Origin: Tepidanaerobacteraceae bacterium | GTDB taxonomy: Bacteria > Bacillota > Thermosediminibacteria > Thermosediminibacterales > Tepidanaerobacteraceae | Direction: 5' to 3' | Length of the DNA stretch: 64,000 bases | Assembly: GCA_024655905.1 (NCBI GenBank) | Contig: JANLFP010000001.1 | Span: 62,001-126,000, forward strand | Shown: piece after piece, positions 2,313 to 9,092 of the stretch | How the letters are laid out: the number at the start of each line of letters is the position of its first letter | Numbering within the stretch: position 1 is the first letter of the stretch | Program-made: the position numbers and the translations under genes | The notes under the pieces: generated by a model | The model's database searches: none | Seen by the model: only the letters and a program-made list of their open reading frames with translations | What the model was told of the DNA's origin: nothing

Positions 2313-2345
2313 AAATTAAAACCTCCCAAAAATTATTCACTTCTA

Positions 2346-2354
2346 CATAATATG
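2346..2354 (-). promoter_or_regulatory. CATATTATG box upstream of the 111-residue protein
   Basis: Read on the minus strand this is GCATATTATG, one base from the GCATATTATA boxes at 2488, 3973 and 4446. It lies about 33 bases before the start at 2312. It resembles a sigma-K -10 element (CATANNNTA, 8 of 9). No clear -35 is visible, so the call is tentative. Confidence 0.35.
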
Positions 2355-2468
2355 CGGGCAACGGGAAAAGTTGCTCCATCGCCACATCTTCTTTGATAAT
2401 AAAATATTCGGGAGTAGACATTTTAGTGAATGCGTTATCTATTAAAACGGCAAAAAAGTTTTACAGTG

Positions 2469-2496
2469 TCACCAAAAATAAAAATTGCATATTATA
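2469..2496 (+). promoter_or_regulatory. Putative sporulation-type promoter P1
   Basis: CATATTATA at 2488-2496 fits the sigma-K -10 pattern CATANNNTA. The sequence from here to the start codon at 2545 is closely related to the same stretch before the gene at 4500, sharing TGCATATTATATAGCAG and AATGAAAGGAGGAGCT. At the -35 position (AC, 17 bases upstream, in P3) this copy has TC. Confidence 0.5.
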
Positions 2497-2544
2497 TAGC
2501 AGGGCTAAACGCAGGGCCTTAAAAAATGAAAGGAGGAGCTGGGC

Positions 2545-2649
2545 ATGACCCAAACAGTATTCTGGATCTGGCTTATAATCTTCCTAATCATACTGATCCC
2601 TATAGTTATCATCTTCTTCCCGCTGCTGGGCAAAGCCGAAAAAGCCTGA
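2545..2649 (+). CDS. 34-residue hydrophobic membrane micro-protein, copy 1
   Basis: A very short protein that is one long hydrophobic helix: it begins MTQTVFWIWLIIF and ends FFPLLGKAEKA. The first 29 residues are the same as those of the second copy at 4500-4595. An AAAGGAGGAGCT ribosome site stands 4-14 bases before the ATG, and a 15-bp terminator follows at once, so this is a real monocistronic gene. Nucleotide differences between the copies are mostly silent, which argues for selection on the protein. I do not recognise a family; a role in the spore envelope or in membrane anchoring is only an inference from the promoter. Confidence 0.75.
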   Translation: MTQTVFWIWLIIFLIILIPIVIIFFPLLGKAEKA

Positions 2650-2659
2650 TAAAATCTAA

Positions 2660-2700
2660 AATTAGAGGGCTCCGTAAATCCGGAGCCCTCTAATTTTTTA
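2660..2700. terminator. Bidirectional intrinsic terminator
   Basis: A perfect 15-bp stem (2660-2674 with 2681-2695) around a 6-nt loop, followed by a T-rich tail to 2699. It lies between the convergent micro-protein gene (ends 2649) and protease gene (ends 2717) and can serve both. Confidence 0.9.
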
Positions 2701-2716
2701 TTGATTTAATTGAGTT

Positions 2717-3907
2717 TTAAAGCTGACAGTTTTCAATATTTTTCCTGGCATTCTTTATGGTTGCCGCAGCTCTTGACACGTTCACAAGGCCCGCTCCCTG
2801 TTTATTTTTGGGAAGCCCTATATCAATTGCGCTGGCAGTCAGCACTTCCTTCACTTTTGCCGGACTCATGCTGGACTTCGCCAGAATCAAAGCGCAAGCC
2901 GCAGTAACGTGAGGAGAGGCCATGGAAGTCCCGCTCATGGATTTGTAGCCTCCATCCTTATAAGTTGAAGGAATGCTTGCCCCCGGGGCTATGACATCAA
3001 CTTCTGGGCCCCCGCTTGAAAACCATGCAGCCTTGTTGGCCGAATTTGAAGCCGCAACTGCTATTACTTCGGGATATTTGGCGGGGTACATCACCGAGTC
3101 GTCACCGCCGGAATTACCGGCAGCGGCTACCAGAACAATGTTTTGCCTGTATGCCTCCTTTATAGCTCTTTCCAGAGCCATGCTGTTTTTGGTAAACCCG
3201 AAGCTCATATTTACAACCTGGACCTTTTTCTCTATACACCACCCCAGCGCATCTATCACATTGGATATGTTGCCTCTGCCGCTCTTGTCAAATGCCTTTA
3301 CGGGATACAAATCAACTCTGGGAGCAACGCCGACAACCCCTATATCATTGTCCAGTGCCGCGATGGTCCCTGCTACATGGCTTCCATGCCCGTTGTCATC
3401 GATAATATTTTTGCAGTCAAGTACGCCGCCTACTTCTTTTACATTATCCTTTAAATCAGGATGATTGATATCCACACCGGTGTCTATTATACCGACCCTG
3501 ACCCCTTCCCCCCTTATATCTTTCCAGACATGGGGAGCTCCTATCTTCTGGACACCCCACGGTATCTCCTGATTTGTTTTTTTGACATCCATGGTCAGGA
3601 AAGGAACCACCTGCACCTCTCCTTGCAGATCGTCCTCTATGAAATCTATGGTGGGGTCCATTGCGAGGCTTTTTATGGATGCATCTCCTTCGTCAACTTC
3701 GCACAGACAGGCATTGGCCAGCGGAAGGGACCTTTTTATTCTGATACCGTATGTTTCTATAACTTCCTGACCCTTTCTCAGGGTCAAACCCTGCTTGAAT
3801 CCCACTATTTTATATTTTACGCGCTTCGCATATCCATGCATCAGTTGAGCCCCCACTGCACCCAACAACAGGTTGAGGCAGTAGGAAGCCATCAATAATG
3901 GCAGCAT
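2717..3907 (-). CDS. Subtilisin-like serine protease (peptidase S8)
   Basis: A 396-residue S8 protease. The catalytic triad is visible: Asp about 142 in GIIDTGVD, His about 174 in NGHGSHVAG and Ser about 328 in GTSMASPH, with the oxyanion Asn in AAAGNSGG. A hydrophobic N-terminal segment (about 1-26) can act as signal or anchor, followed by an inhibitor-like propeptide (about 30-100) before the catalytic domain. I choose the ATG at 3907, nine bases after GGAGGGGG; the longer frame from the TTG at 3949 would translate through that ribosome site. It is divergent from the coiled-coil gene at 4014 and lies between the two micro-protein copies, so it may process a protein of this cluster (inference). 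Confidence 0.9.
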   Translation of the reverse strand: MLPLLMASYCLNLLLGAVGAQLMHGYAKRVKYKIVGFKQGLTLRKGQEVIETYGIRIKRSLPLANACLCEVDEGDASIKSLAMDPTIDFIEDDLQGEVQVVPFLTMDVKKTNQEIPWGVQKIGAPHVWKDIRGEGVRVGIIDTGVDINHPDLKDNVKEVGGVLDCKNIIDDNGHGSHVAGTIAALDNDIGVVGVAPRVDLYPVKAFDKSGRGNISNVIDALGWCIEKKVQVVNMSFGFTKNSMALERAIKEAYRQNIVLVAAAGNSGGDDSVMYPAKYPEVIAVAASNSANKAAWFSSGGPEVDVIAPGASIPSTYKDGGYKSMSGTSMASPHVTAACALILAKSSMSPAKVKEVLTASAIDIGLPKNKQGAGLVNVSRAAATIKNARKNIENCQL

Positions 3908-3953
3908 TTTCTTGCCCCCTCCTTTATTTTCTGATAATAACATATTCAAAGGG

Positions 3954-3981
3954 GCAAGATTTGGTGATATTGCATATTATA
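3954..3981 (+). promoter_or_regulatory. Putative sporulation-type promoter P2
   Basis: TGCATATTATA at 3971-3981 matches the -10 boxes of P1 and P3 and lies 33 bases before the coiled-coil gene at 4014. The -35 region is not clear. On the other strand the same bases read TGTATAATATGC, with a TATAAT that could serve the divergent protease. Confidence 0.45.
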
Positions 3982-4013
3982 CATTAGGTCAAAAATGAGG
4001 AAGGAGGTATTCT

Positions 4014-4421
4014 ATGACAAAAGAGGAACTGGAAAAGGCCCTCAAGGAGGTCGAAGAGCAGAGGAATCAATTGAGGGAAGAATTAAATAAATACGAAAAT
4101 CCCGACGAAAGCAACGTAGTCACCATGGCGGCTTCGGCAAAAAAAGCCCTGCAAAATGCTATCAGCTCGGGCAGCCTTAAAAACATACTGGAGAAAGTCT
4201 CCGGCTCCATAGATTTTATGAAAACTGCAGTAACCAGCTTTACGCAAATAGTAGATAAAGCCCAGCAAAAATTGGAAGGCAAAGTCGAGGAAATAACCAT
4301 TCAGGGCGGCATGAAGGTTATGAGCGATATGTGGGTGCCTATGGTACTAGGCCTCATACAGACTCAGGAATTCCAGCACATTATGGCAAATATGCTGGTC
4401 AAAATAATAAAAGATTCTTAG
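4014..4421 (+). CDS. Hypothetical coiled-coil protein
   Basis: A 135-residue protein, not recognised. Residues about 1-30 are heptad-like and highly charged (EELEKALKEVEEQRNQLREEL), so a coiled coil is likely; about 40-110 is amphipathic helix, and the end (VPMVLGLIQTQEFQHIMANM) is hydrophobic. There is no signal peptide. An AGGAAGGAGG ribosome site precedes the ATG. It is followed, five bases after its stop, by the P3 promoter of the second micro-protein, and shares the GCATATTATA promoter box with that gene, so co-expression is likely. Confidence 0.7.
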   Translation: MTKEELEKALKEVEEQRNQLREELNKYENPDESNVVTMAASAKKALQNAISSGSLKNILEKVSGSIDFMKTAVTSFTQIVDKAQQKLEGKVEEITIQGGMKVMSDMWVPMVLGLIQTQEFQHIMANMLVKIIKDS

Positions 4422-4426
4422 CGGTG

Positions 4427-4454
4427 ACACCGAAATTCAAAAATGCATATTATA
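4427..4454 (+). promoter_or_regulatory. Putative sporulation-type promoter P3
   Basis: AC at 4427-4428, a 17-base spacer, then CATATTATA at 4446-4454. This fits the sigma-K pattern AC-N17-CATANNNTA fully. It starts just after the coiled-coil gene and drives the micro-protein at 4500. Assignment to a mother-cell sigma factor is inference from motif alone. Confidence 0.55.
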
Positions 4455-4499
4455 TAGCAGAGCAGTCAAAAGCTCTTAAAATGAAAGGAGGAGCTCGAT

Positions 4500-4595
4500 A
4501 TGACTCAAACAGTATTCTGGATATGGCTCATAATCTTTCTTATTATCCTGATTCCCATAGTAATTATATTCTTCCCGCTTCTTGGAACAAAGTAA
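4500..4595 (+). CDS. 31-residue hydrophobic membrane micro-protein, copy 2
   Basis: Starts MTQTVFWIWLIIF and ends FFPLLGTK; residues 1-29 equal those of the copy at 2545-2649 and only the tail differs. The ribosome site AAAGGAGGAGCT and the -10 region are also conserved between copies. A terminator follows at 4672-4697. One membrane helix is predicted with almost no soluble part. Function unknown; the duplication around a protease and a coiled-coil protein suggests one functional unit (inference). Confidence 0.75.
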   Translation: MTQTVFWIWLIIFLIILIPIVIIFFPLLGTK

Positions 4596-4671
4596 GATTT
4601 TATTTCGGATGGATTCGCGCGATGTGCGGGTTTGTCCGAATCATAAAATGCAATAATGTACAGAAATTCAT

Positions 4672-4697
4672 TCCGGCATTTTTGCCGGATTTTTTTA
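4672..4697 (+). terminator. Intrinsic terminator
   Basis: CCGGC at 4673-4677 pairs with GCCGG at 4684-4688 (extended by a T-A pair), followed by TTTTTTT. It ends the micro-protein transcript. Confidence 0.85.
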
Positions 4698-7437: not shown

Positions 7438-7560
7438 CTATTTCAATTGTTCCTTTTTAAGTGCAATAGAGATAAAAGTCGCGAGGCCTCCGTAAAGCAG
7501 CACCAGTCCGAAGATTAGCATAACAACGGCTCCGGGTTCCATTCCTGTGTAGTTCATCAT
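7438..7560 (-). CDS. Small subunit of NSS transporter (MetS/MaAIMP type)
   Basis: A 40-residue protein, MMNYTGMEPGAVVMLIFGL at the start, with a single membrane helix (about 11-34) and a GxxLLYGGLA core. It matches the short companion subunit of NSS-family amino acid importers described for methionine/alanine uptake (MetS). Its ATG overlaps the transporter stop (ATGA), so it is translationally coupled. It closes the tnaA-transporter operon and is followed by a terminator. Confidence 0.85.
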   Translation of the reverse strand: MMNYTGMEPGAVVMLIFGLVLLYGGLATFISIALKKEQLK

Positions 7561-9092
7561 TTGTTCACCGCCCCGTCATCGATTTTATTAAAGCAGATAT
7601 GCGGATTGGTCCACGGCCTGCCGGAGAGGTAAAGGGCCACAATAAGCATGCCGACCGCTACCGACCACCCCAGACAAATAATCGCGCTCATGGGATACCC
7701 TGCATACGGCGCTTTGAATTCATTTATCAAATTCTGAATGAACATATAGCCCAGCATCAGAGGAGTGAGGTATTTCACGCAGAAATCGAGCCACCATCCA
7801 ATTCGAAAGTCGGAGTATAGGTTGGCATGCTGTTTTATTCTGTCGGTTCCATACACATATCCGAGCACAAGGGCTTCGACAAGACCCAGAAGAGCTATAC
7901 CGTAGCTGGAGACAAAATGGTCGACAATATCCAGTATATGCACTCCTGCGCCGGTAGCAATAAACATGCTGCCGATGAATCCTCCAATGGAAATTCTCTT
8001 AATTATCTCTTTACGGCTTATGTCATATTTATCAAGGGCAGCAGTAGCAAAGGATTCCAGCATTGAAATGCTCGAAGAAATGCCTGCAATAAACAAACTG
8101 AAGAAGAACATTATTCCGAATATGCTTTGGAAAATCCTGGGCATCGGCAACATGCTTATGGCTTTGGGAAAAGCCACAAAAGCAACTCCTGCCCCATTCG
8201 CAGCCACTTTTTCAAAAGGAACATTGGAAGCCACAGCAGCATATCCCAGGATGCTGAAAACTGCCAGGCCTGCCAGAAAATCGAAGCTGGAGTTGGAAAA
8301 AACCGTTATGAAGGAATTATTCACTATATCGGATTTTTCCGGCAAGTAACTGGCATAAGCTATCATTACCCCCACTGCCAGAGTCGTGGAAAAAAACACC
8401 TGACCGTATGCTGCTATCCACACCTGCGGGTCCATAATTTTCGAAAAATCGGGCTTTAAAAACCAGTTCAGGCCGTATGCAGCTCCGGGCAGCGTTAGAC
8501 CTCTGATGGTTATAATTACCATCAAAACAGCCAAAAGCGGCGTTATAATTCTGCAAGCCTTTTCTATTCCCCCGGATATGCCGTTTCTTGTGATGAAATA
8601 ATTCAACAGCCATACAACCACTACTCCCAGCGCTATAGTCCAGCGAAATCCTCCCAAATCCCACGGGCCGCTGGATACACCCAGAAATTTCCCTCCAAAG
8701 AAGGCATTGGGATCTGTGCCCCATGCCTGGGTAAAGGAAAACACCAAGTAGTTGAGGCTCCACGCAATTATGGTGGAATAATAGCACATGACAATAAGCG
8801 GCACCATGGTCTGCCACCAGCCTATGAATTCCCATTTTTTCCCGAGTTTTGCGAAGGAAAGGGTGGCACCTCCCTTCATTCTGTGGCCGAAAGAAAATTC
8901 CATTATCATTAAGGGAACACCGGCCGTAAGAAGAGCAAAGAAGTAAGGAATTAGAAAAGCCCCGCCGCCGTTTTTATAAGCCATGAAGGGGAAACGCCAG
9001 AAATTTCCCAAACCCACAGCAGCTCCAACGGTGGAAAAGATAAATCCTGCTCTTGATCTCCACTGGTCTCTTTCCAAATTTTCCACAAACAC
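7557..9092 (-). CDS. Sodium-dependent NSS-family amino acid transporter, probably for tryptophan
   Basis: A LeuT-fold sodium symporter of 511 residues with about 12 helices. The N-terminal segment holds the NSS signature SRAGFIFSTVGAAVGLGNFWRF, with the sodium-site residues AAVGLGN. It follows tryptophanase by 115 bases in the same direction. TnaT of Symbiobacterium, an NSS tryptophan carrier, is linked to tryptophanase, so tryptophan is the likely substrate here (inference from context). The micro-subunit gene downstream overlaps its stop by four bases. Confidence 0.9.
   Translation of the reverse strand: MFVENLERDQWRSRAGFIFSTVGAAVGLGNFWRFPFMAYKNGGGAFLIPYFFALLTAGVPLMIMEFSFGHRMKGGATLSFAKLGKKWEFIGWWQTMVPLIVMCYYSTIIAWSLNYLVFSFTQAWGTDPNAFFGGKFLGVSSGPWDLGGFRWTIALGVVVVWLLNYFITRNGISGGIEKACRIITPLLAVLMVIITIRGLTLPGAAYGLNWFLKPDFSKIMDPQVWIAAYGQVFFSTTLAVGVMIAYASYLPEKSDIVNNSFITVFSNSSFDFLAGLAVFSILGYAAVASNVPFEKVAANGAGVAFVAFPKAISMLPMPRIFQSIFGIMFFFSLFIAGISSSISMLESFATAALDKYDISRKEIIKRISIGGFIGSMFIATGAGVHILDIVDHFVSSYGIALLGLVEALVLGYVYGTDRIKQHANLYSDFRIGWWLDFCVKYLTPLMLGYMFIQNLINEFKAPYAGYPMSAIICLGWSVAVGMLIVALYLSGRPWTNPHICFNKIDDGAVNK

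Follow-up and report, generated by a model that had tools for sequence, protein, structure and literature searches.

Twin micro-genes and their partners form a conserved gene set with mother-cell-type promoters, a candidate spore-envelope module of Bacillota

In a 64-kb window (the whole stretch of DNA that was analyzed, 64,000 nucleotides) from the genome of a Tepidanaerobacteraceae bacterium, a thermophilic spore-former, two micro-genes, mpA and mpB, were found together with genes for a coiled-coil protein (CC), a 111-residue protein (P111) and an S8 subtilase (S8). The micro-protein (mp), CC, P111 and S8 families form a conserved gene set with conserved promoters of the mother-cell type, and with moderate confidence we read them as a late mother-cell spore-envelope module, most likely dependent on sigma-K, in which membrane anchors and helical structural proteins would be served by a processing protease. 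The window genome (3.2 Mb, estimated completeness 99.98%) is of the Tepidanaerobacteraceae type in the order Thermosediminibacterales, and it encodes SigA, SigE, SigF, SigG and SigK as well as SpoIVA. Its close relatives are Tepidanaerobacteraceae and Thermoanaerobacterales metagenome-assembled genomes, Tepidanaerobacter sp. GT38, Thermosediminibacter litoriperuensis, Fervidicola ferrireducens and Thermovorax subterraneus. Among these, the strains T. litoriperuensis DSM 16647 and T. subterraneus DSM 21563 are named carriers of the module. The window genome's own family is referred to as f1 and the Thermosediminibacteraceae as f2; f18, f26, f33, f53, f109 and f122 are labels only.

The mpA gene (2545 to 2649, plus strand) and the mpB gene (4500 to 4595, plus strand) encode single-transmembrane micro-proteins of 34 residues (MTQTVFWIWLIIFLIILIPIVIIFFPLLGKAEKA) and 31 residues (MTQTVFWIWLIIFLIILIPIVIIFFPLLGTK), respectively. 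Residues 1 to 29 were identical in both (MTQTVFWIWLIIFLIILIPIVIIFFPLLG), followed by the tails KAEKA in mpA and TK in mpB. Across the 29 shared codons, 15 nucleotide differences were found, of which 15 were silent and 0 were replacements. This agrees with a first-pass annotation of the DNA, which had reported two micro-genes with silent changes only and had placed a protease and a coiled-coil gene between them; S8 on the minus strand and CC at 4014 to 4421 were indeed found there. Between genomes, the ratio of nonsynonymous to synonymous substitution (dN/dS) of the mp was 0.02 to 0.22 in the pairs tested where it was estimable. Because the differences are all silent and dN/dS is low, mpA and mpB are real coding genes under strong purifying selection. 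Ribosome sites (AAAGGAGGAG) were present 5 to 9 nucleotides upstream of the ATG in both, with AGGAGG at 2531 to 2536 for mpA. Each mp consists of a single hydrophobic segment that has W or WW close to its start and, in most cases, a P in mid-segment; a cysteine run is added in some families. A 17-bp palindrome at 2658 to 2697, terminator-like on both strands, is common to mpA and S8, and an intrinsic-terminator-like site follows mpB (4672 to 4689, plus strand). A hairpin in the mp 5' leader (AGRGCU-loop-AGCYCU) was noticed on inspection and in several individual folds; RNAalifold on a MAFFT alignment gave no consensus pair, and the hairpin is a suggestion only.

The sequence GCATATTAT occurred exactly four times in the window, once each before mpA, mpB, CC and P111, compared to 0.87 copies expected, and one of 100 shuffles reached four, at any positions in the window. 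Boxes before these four genes had been noted in the first-pass annotation, and its reading of one promoter (P3) as AC-N17-CATATTATA was likewise borne out: this is the mpB promoter (GTGACACC ... GCATATTATA, 4424 to 4454, plus strand), with AC at 4427-4428 and CATA from 4446. The mpA promoter (GTGTCACC ... GCATATTATA) lies at 2466 to 2496 on the plus strand, and the CC promoter has its -10 element GCATATTATA at 3972 to 3981 on the plus strand, conserved in both families of the order. The P111 box GCATATTATG (2347 to 2356, minus strand) was found at the same place in three related loci (L019, L020, L021). The S8 promoter, TCACC-N15-GAATATGTTA (3933 to 3967, minus strand), had the same layout in f1, f2 and f53, across which TCACC-N15-GAATANNNT was kept.

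In Clostridioides difficile, CATATTAT is a canonical mother-cell -10 element, while AC in the -35 element denotes sigma-K and ATA denotes sigma-E (Saujet et al., PMC3789822); the sigma-K spacing between the 5-nucleotide and 10-nucleotide elements is 14 to 16 (Eichenberger et al., PMC517825). The -10 element of the sigma-K regulon, CATANNNT(A), was found exactly before mpA, mpB and CC. Among 31 mp and 23 CC genes chosen across genera, CATANNNT was present 15 to 100 nucleotides upstream of 21 and 16, respectively, compared to 2.9 and 3.4 in shuffles and to 9.7% of 341 other open reading frames (ORFs). Upstream of the same genes, CATATWAT was found for 11 mp and 13 CC, compared to 0.2 and 0.4 expected. 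Moreover, AC stood 14 to 17 nucleotides before CATA in 18 of the 21 mp promoters (shuffle mean 5.5; 0 of 5000 shuffles reached 18) and the ATA of sigma-E at the -35 place in 0 of 21, so that the -35 element of the mp matches that of sigma-K. Judged from these motifs, mother-cell-type promoters are conserved far beyond the window genome. Together with the encoded SigE, SigF, SigG, SigK and SpoIVA, they support the earlier proposal of a sporulation-linked set under a sigma-K-type promoter, and we infer a well-supported link to sporulation. As a regulon marker by itself, GCATATTATR was set aside: the genome contained 39 copies, the backward control gave 11, and of 30 sites inspected many were within long ORFs. 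The box alone is not specific in its own genome; its evidential force is its conserved position across species.

Homologues in the same context were searched for and found, as order-wide synteny and then in further Bacillota families, a spread wider than the first-pass annotation could reveal. In a sample of 398 Bacillota genomes from 267 genera, the CC profile matched 41 genomes in 19 genera, whereas mp and P111 were found in 49 and 50 genomes, respectively, and all three together in 35. The mp were present in 38 of the 41 CC genomes compared to 11 of the 357 others (Fisher 1e-39), and P111 in 37 of 41 compared to 13 of 357 (Fisher 2e-36), p-values that overstate the association because the genomes are related. 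Counted by hand per genus, mp occurred in 18 of 19 CC genera and in 8 of 248 others. In 32 of 39 genomes the mp lay at most 3 kb from CC or P111. Because loci near CC were the source of the mp model, agreement is favored, although distant pairs in f18 and f33 were found with it too. The surroundings of CC were also read without recourse to this model, using only size, hydrophobicity, ribosome site and W as criteria, and in most loci so read there were micro-genes beside CC: f53 had MTQEIEFWWIIILLFVLLVPMFLIIFPIFPWSKNA and as many as three others, f122 had two copies of FWWIFILLFILFIPLLFFFFIPVWGK, f18 had MHDFWWIFLLVIVIVIPVVVIVIPLM and f26 had GWWWILIIIIIIFFFFCCCFFGPFGG. Common ancestry of the mp across all families is likely from this context; because the mp are short and hydrophobic, their sequences give no proof of it.

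The arrangement differed between families. P111 is divergent from CC in f26 and f53, and S8 was present in the f53 and f122 loci with approximately 40-45% identity. In one f18 genome (G278) the order was S8, mp, mp and P111, at 8 kb from CC. In f33, two micro-genes adjoin P111, and yabG immediately precedes CC; further upstream of yabG-CC, an RNase-H-like gene and ksgA were observed in three f33 loci (L156, L165, L166).

Within the order Thermosediminibacterales, the mp model matched 18 of 22 genomes and the synteny of the module was kept across two families. The constant arrangement in f2 was S8 divergent from CC, with S8 then followed by P111. Thermosediminibacter carries two micro-genes (...WWWWLFIPIIIVVFFFPIIIIVLG...) just upstream of CC1 and of the gene for an RsuA-type pseudouridine synthase, and in other f2 genomes micro-genes were found upstream of RsuA on a contig different from that of CC. 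In other genera of f1 (L022, L023, L024, L025, L027) the unit is doubled, and consists of P111, in some loci S8-1, divergent from CC1 and mpA, then S8-2 divergent from CC2 and mpB, and the RsuA gene. The second S8 at the CC1 unit was retained in L024 and L025, and in L025 P111 directly follows it. Gene order thus compared indicates that the twins descend from an ancient tandem duplication, in which a [protease / coiled-coil - micro-gene] unit was doubled, and that CC1 and S8-1 were lost in the window's genus and in genus g5, leaving mpA as the orphan of a lost operon. Upstream of P111, GAATATTTTATTATC (2395 to 2409, minus strand) is a relic of the promoter or leader of the lost second S8 gene; S8 genes in f1 genomes have this motif in front of them. 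The mpB of the window has an mpA-type box context (TATAGCAG), while the mpB of G001 and G009 have TATGTATCAG. This mpA-type box, combined with identical proteins and many silent differences, suggests past exchange between the mp copies followed by strong selection. A third mp copy was found elsewhere in G009 (L029, 6112 to 6213, minus strand). It has a GAATATTATA box, is accompanied by a copy of the 3' end of CC and encodes a changed C-terminus; it is a decaying duplicate.

Of the partner proteins, CC (4014 to 4421, plus strand) is a 135-residue helical protein in which an N-terminal coiled coil of variable length precedes a conserved C-terminal half (EFQxxxA) that holds the G, K and EFQ...A positions in alignments. 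P111 (1977 to 2312, minus strand) is an all-helical protein and a core member of the module; its AlphaFold model had a mean predicted local distance difference test score (pLDDT) of 72 and six helices, and G and P were invariant in the alignment. A fold search of the PDB with P111 gave no match at E<0.001. Weak matches of CC and P111 among solved structures, mainly to designed helical bundles and other helical proteins, were taken as composition. The start of P60 (1798 to 1980, minus strand), a 60-residue single-transmembrane protein, overlaps the P111 stop; its orthologues, 65-82% identical and adjoining P111, were found in L019, L020 and L021 only, making it a lineage-specific companion. The S8 gene (2717 to 3907, minus strand) starts with an ATG at about 3907 and stops at 2717; its product carries a prodomain and, at the N-terminus, a hydrophobic segment. 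The protein matched PF00082 with an E value of 6e-60, the translation contains the catalytic motifs DTG, HGSHVAG and GTSMASPH, residues 33-384 with the prodomain included align with pro-subtilisin E (3whi), and its orthologues hold the same place in relatives. No family cut-off of Pfam or NCBIfam was reached by mp, CC or P111, in agreement with the first-pass description of the set as undescribed, and the literature yielded no paper on mp, CC, P111 or the module S8. In the main tables of a Moorella spore proteome (PMC8745062) none of these proteins was named. PADLOC and PHROGs gave weak coiled-coil or general subtilase matches only, so nothing pointed to an origin in defence systems or phages. 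A conserved protein of approximately 340 residues was observed near CC in f53 and f33 (L159, 2403 to 3425, minus strand; also L160, L161, L163, L164 and L166); it is without a clear Pfam family and may be a further protease-like member.

The module probably helps to build the outer layers of the spore. On this most economical reading, sigma-K RNA polymerase would be the likeliest enzyme to transcribe it, at a late stage and in the mother cell, and the mp would be made in quantity from short, strongly initiated mRNAs. They would insert as single-pass proteins into a mother-cell-derived membrane around the forespore and form a membrane layer or anchor for the soluble helical CC and P111, which may be structural, coat-like components, with CC as a possible scaffold. 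S8 would be exported and would trim envelope proteins, analogous to the action of YabG on coat proteins. Besides the purifying selection on the mp, the synteny and co-occurrence of the families and their promoter motifs, this reading is supported by the encoded SigK and SigE, by SpoIVA in most genomes of relatives, by CC adjoining yabG in f33 and by the WW micro-genes that G398 carries close to a gene for a germination permease. A more far-reaching version, in which the four families make up a hitherto unknown system for assembling the spore envelope in anaerobic and thermophilic Bacillota, with a layer of WW-type mp on the outer forespore membrane, CC and P111 assembling on that layer and S8 maturing it, is tentative and seems rather doubtful to us.

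Known systems serve this mechanism by analogy only. In the SpoVM-SpoIVA system, a 26-residue amphipathic peptide directs the basement protein of the coat to the outer forespore membrane. The proposed module would resemble it in combining a tiny mother-cell membrane peptide with a larger soluble structural protein and in being limited to spore-formers. In contrast to the amphipathic helix of SpoVM, the mp are uniformly hydrophobic by sequence, form a transmembrane segment and occur in multiple copies. CC and P111 are unrelated to SpoIVA, which is encoded separately in these genomes (in the window genome, the module is on contig C11 and SpoIVA on contig C22) and was present in 38 of the 41 genomes covered when relatives were searched. 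YjcZ-type proteins of Bacillus (PF09680/TIGR01732) are tiny, transmembrane and sporulation-linked by name (PMC11796252), and the mp are like them in having 30-45 residues, one transmembrane segment and several copies. Unlike them, the mp have WW and P motifs and fixed CC, P111 and S8 neighbors, and neither model matched any tested mp at E values up to 1-5. In C. difficile, YabG is under sigma-K control (PMC3789822); the module shares with this coat-processing peptidase the idea of a sporulation protease, but S8 is a subtilase and YabG belongs to peptidase family U57. S8 has the domain, catalytic motifs and prodomain of known subtilases (subtilisin E, mycosin, Csp) and differs from them in its fixed neighbors CC, P111 and mp and in scoring under all equivalog cut-offs, the nearest NCBIfam model being mycosin (180 of 279 bits).

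Several findings weigh against the assignment to a sigma-K spore-envelope module. In the order Thermosediminibacterales, CC has GGCA and not AC at the -35 place. The sequences GTGACA-N18-TATTAT (mpB) and GTGTCA-N18-TATTAT (mpA) agree with sigma-A sites in 9-10 of 12 positions, and CATANNNT itself includes the -10 core of sigma-A (TANNNT). The predicted model of CC was of low confidence (pLDDT 67; predicted template modelling score 0.35). Finally, three genomes of genus g6, in the family of the window genome, were without mp, CC and S8, yet SpoIVA was present in 2 of 3, and the module is therefore not needed for sporulation as such. Because the mpA and mpB promoters also resemble sigma-A sites, the window alone cannot decide the sigma factor, and on the main rival explanation the genes could be a vegetative or general envelope-stress set under sigma-A, in which the mp and helical partners protect or organize the membrane, the protease performs quality control and the link to spore-formers is taxonomic only. 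That link is weak evidence, since most nearer relatives are genetic spore-formers anyway. Across families, however, the -35 element retains AC and not the TTG of TTGACA, and the -10 element has a fixed CATA with a free middle (TAGCCT, TATGCT, TATTGT) rather than TATAAT. With the excess of CATATWAT over expectation before mp and CC genes, this makes a sigma-A set unlikely.

The mp could also be substrates of S8, as precursors of secreted signal or bacteriocin-like peptides with CC and P111 as accessories. S8 lies beside mp in f1, f53, f122 and f18, and relatives of such subtilases mature peptides. However, the mp persists in the f26 and f33 loci, although no S8 was found there next to CC or mp; there was no constant exporter or immunity gene, and conservation spans the transmembrane segment itself and not a variable core, so that we consider peptide precursors quite improbable. 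A role of the mp as inner-membrane or receptor-associated germination proteins, outside the outer envelope, was suggested by G398 (family f125), where three WW micro-genes with GYGYG starts (L191, 5113 to 5810) lie near a gene for an endospore germination permease (TIGR00912), found with germination-receptor-like ORFs on the other strand beyond them, and by the S8 proteases (Csp) that act in clostridial germination. In contrast, the spore's outer side is where mother-cell promoters would be expected to place these proteins, no ger gene was near most loci, and S8 scored far below the NCBIfam cut-offs for CspBA (37 of 1250 bits) and CspC (33 of 675 bits); a germination role is thus very improbable. 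Membrane-active toxins of type I toxin-antitoxin systems (Fst/Ldr/TisB style) would share the size, single transmembrane segment, near-identical tandem copies and W-rich ends of the mp, but the absence of plasmid matches for mp and phage matches for CC, the vertical synteny with three other genes in many families, and the strong open ribosome sites and mother-cell promoters make this explanation very improbable, although no search was aimed at an antisense-RNA antitoxin.

What is known of coat and spore-membrane components derives largely from Bacillus and a few Clostridium models; in other spore-formers, coat proteins are difficult to detect by homology. Four co-travelling gene families with mother-cell-type promoters, three of them without a library model, in many spore-forming families provide new candidate spore-envelope proteins in thermophilic anaerobes, including a family of approximately 30-residue proteins that is likely missed by routine gene calling. 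Many of the hosts are distant from the Bacillus and C. difficile models.

Two further features of the window were observed. The sequence GAGTCAGGGGACGGTTCYTTGACTCAT was present in five copies (26 to 52, 85 to 111, 122 to 148 on the minus strand, 1736 to 1762, and 1767 to 1793 on the minus strand), none being expected; one inverted pair lies between a permease gene and P60, and the element looks like a repetitive extragenic palindromic (REP)-type repeat. At 7438 to 7560 on the minus strand, a 40-residue single-transmembrane ORF lies at the end of a sodium-symporter-like gene (7557 to 9092) and probably encodes a small transporter subunit.

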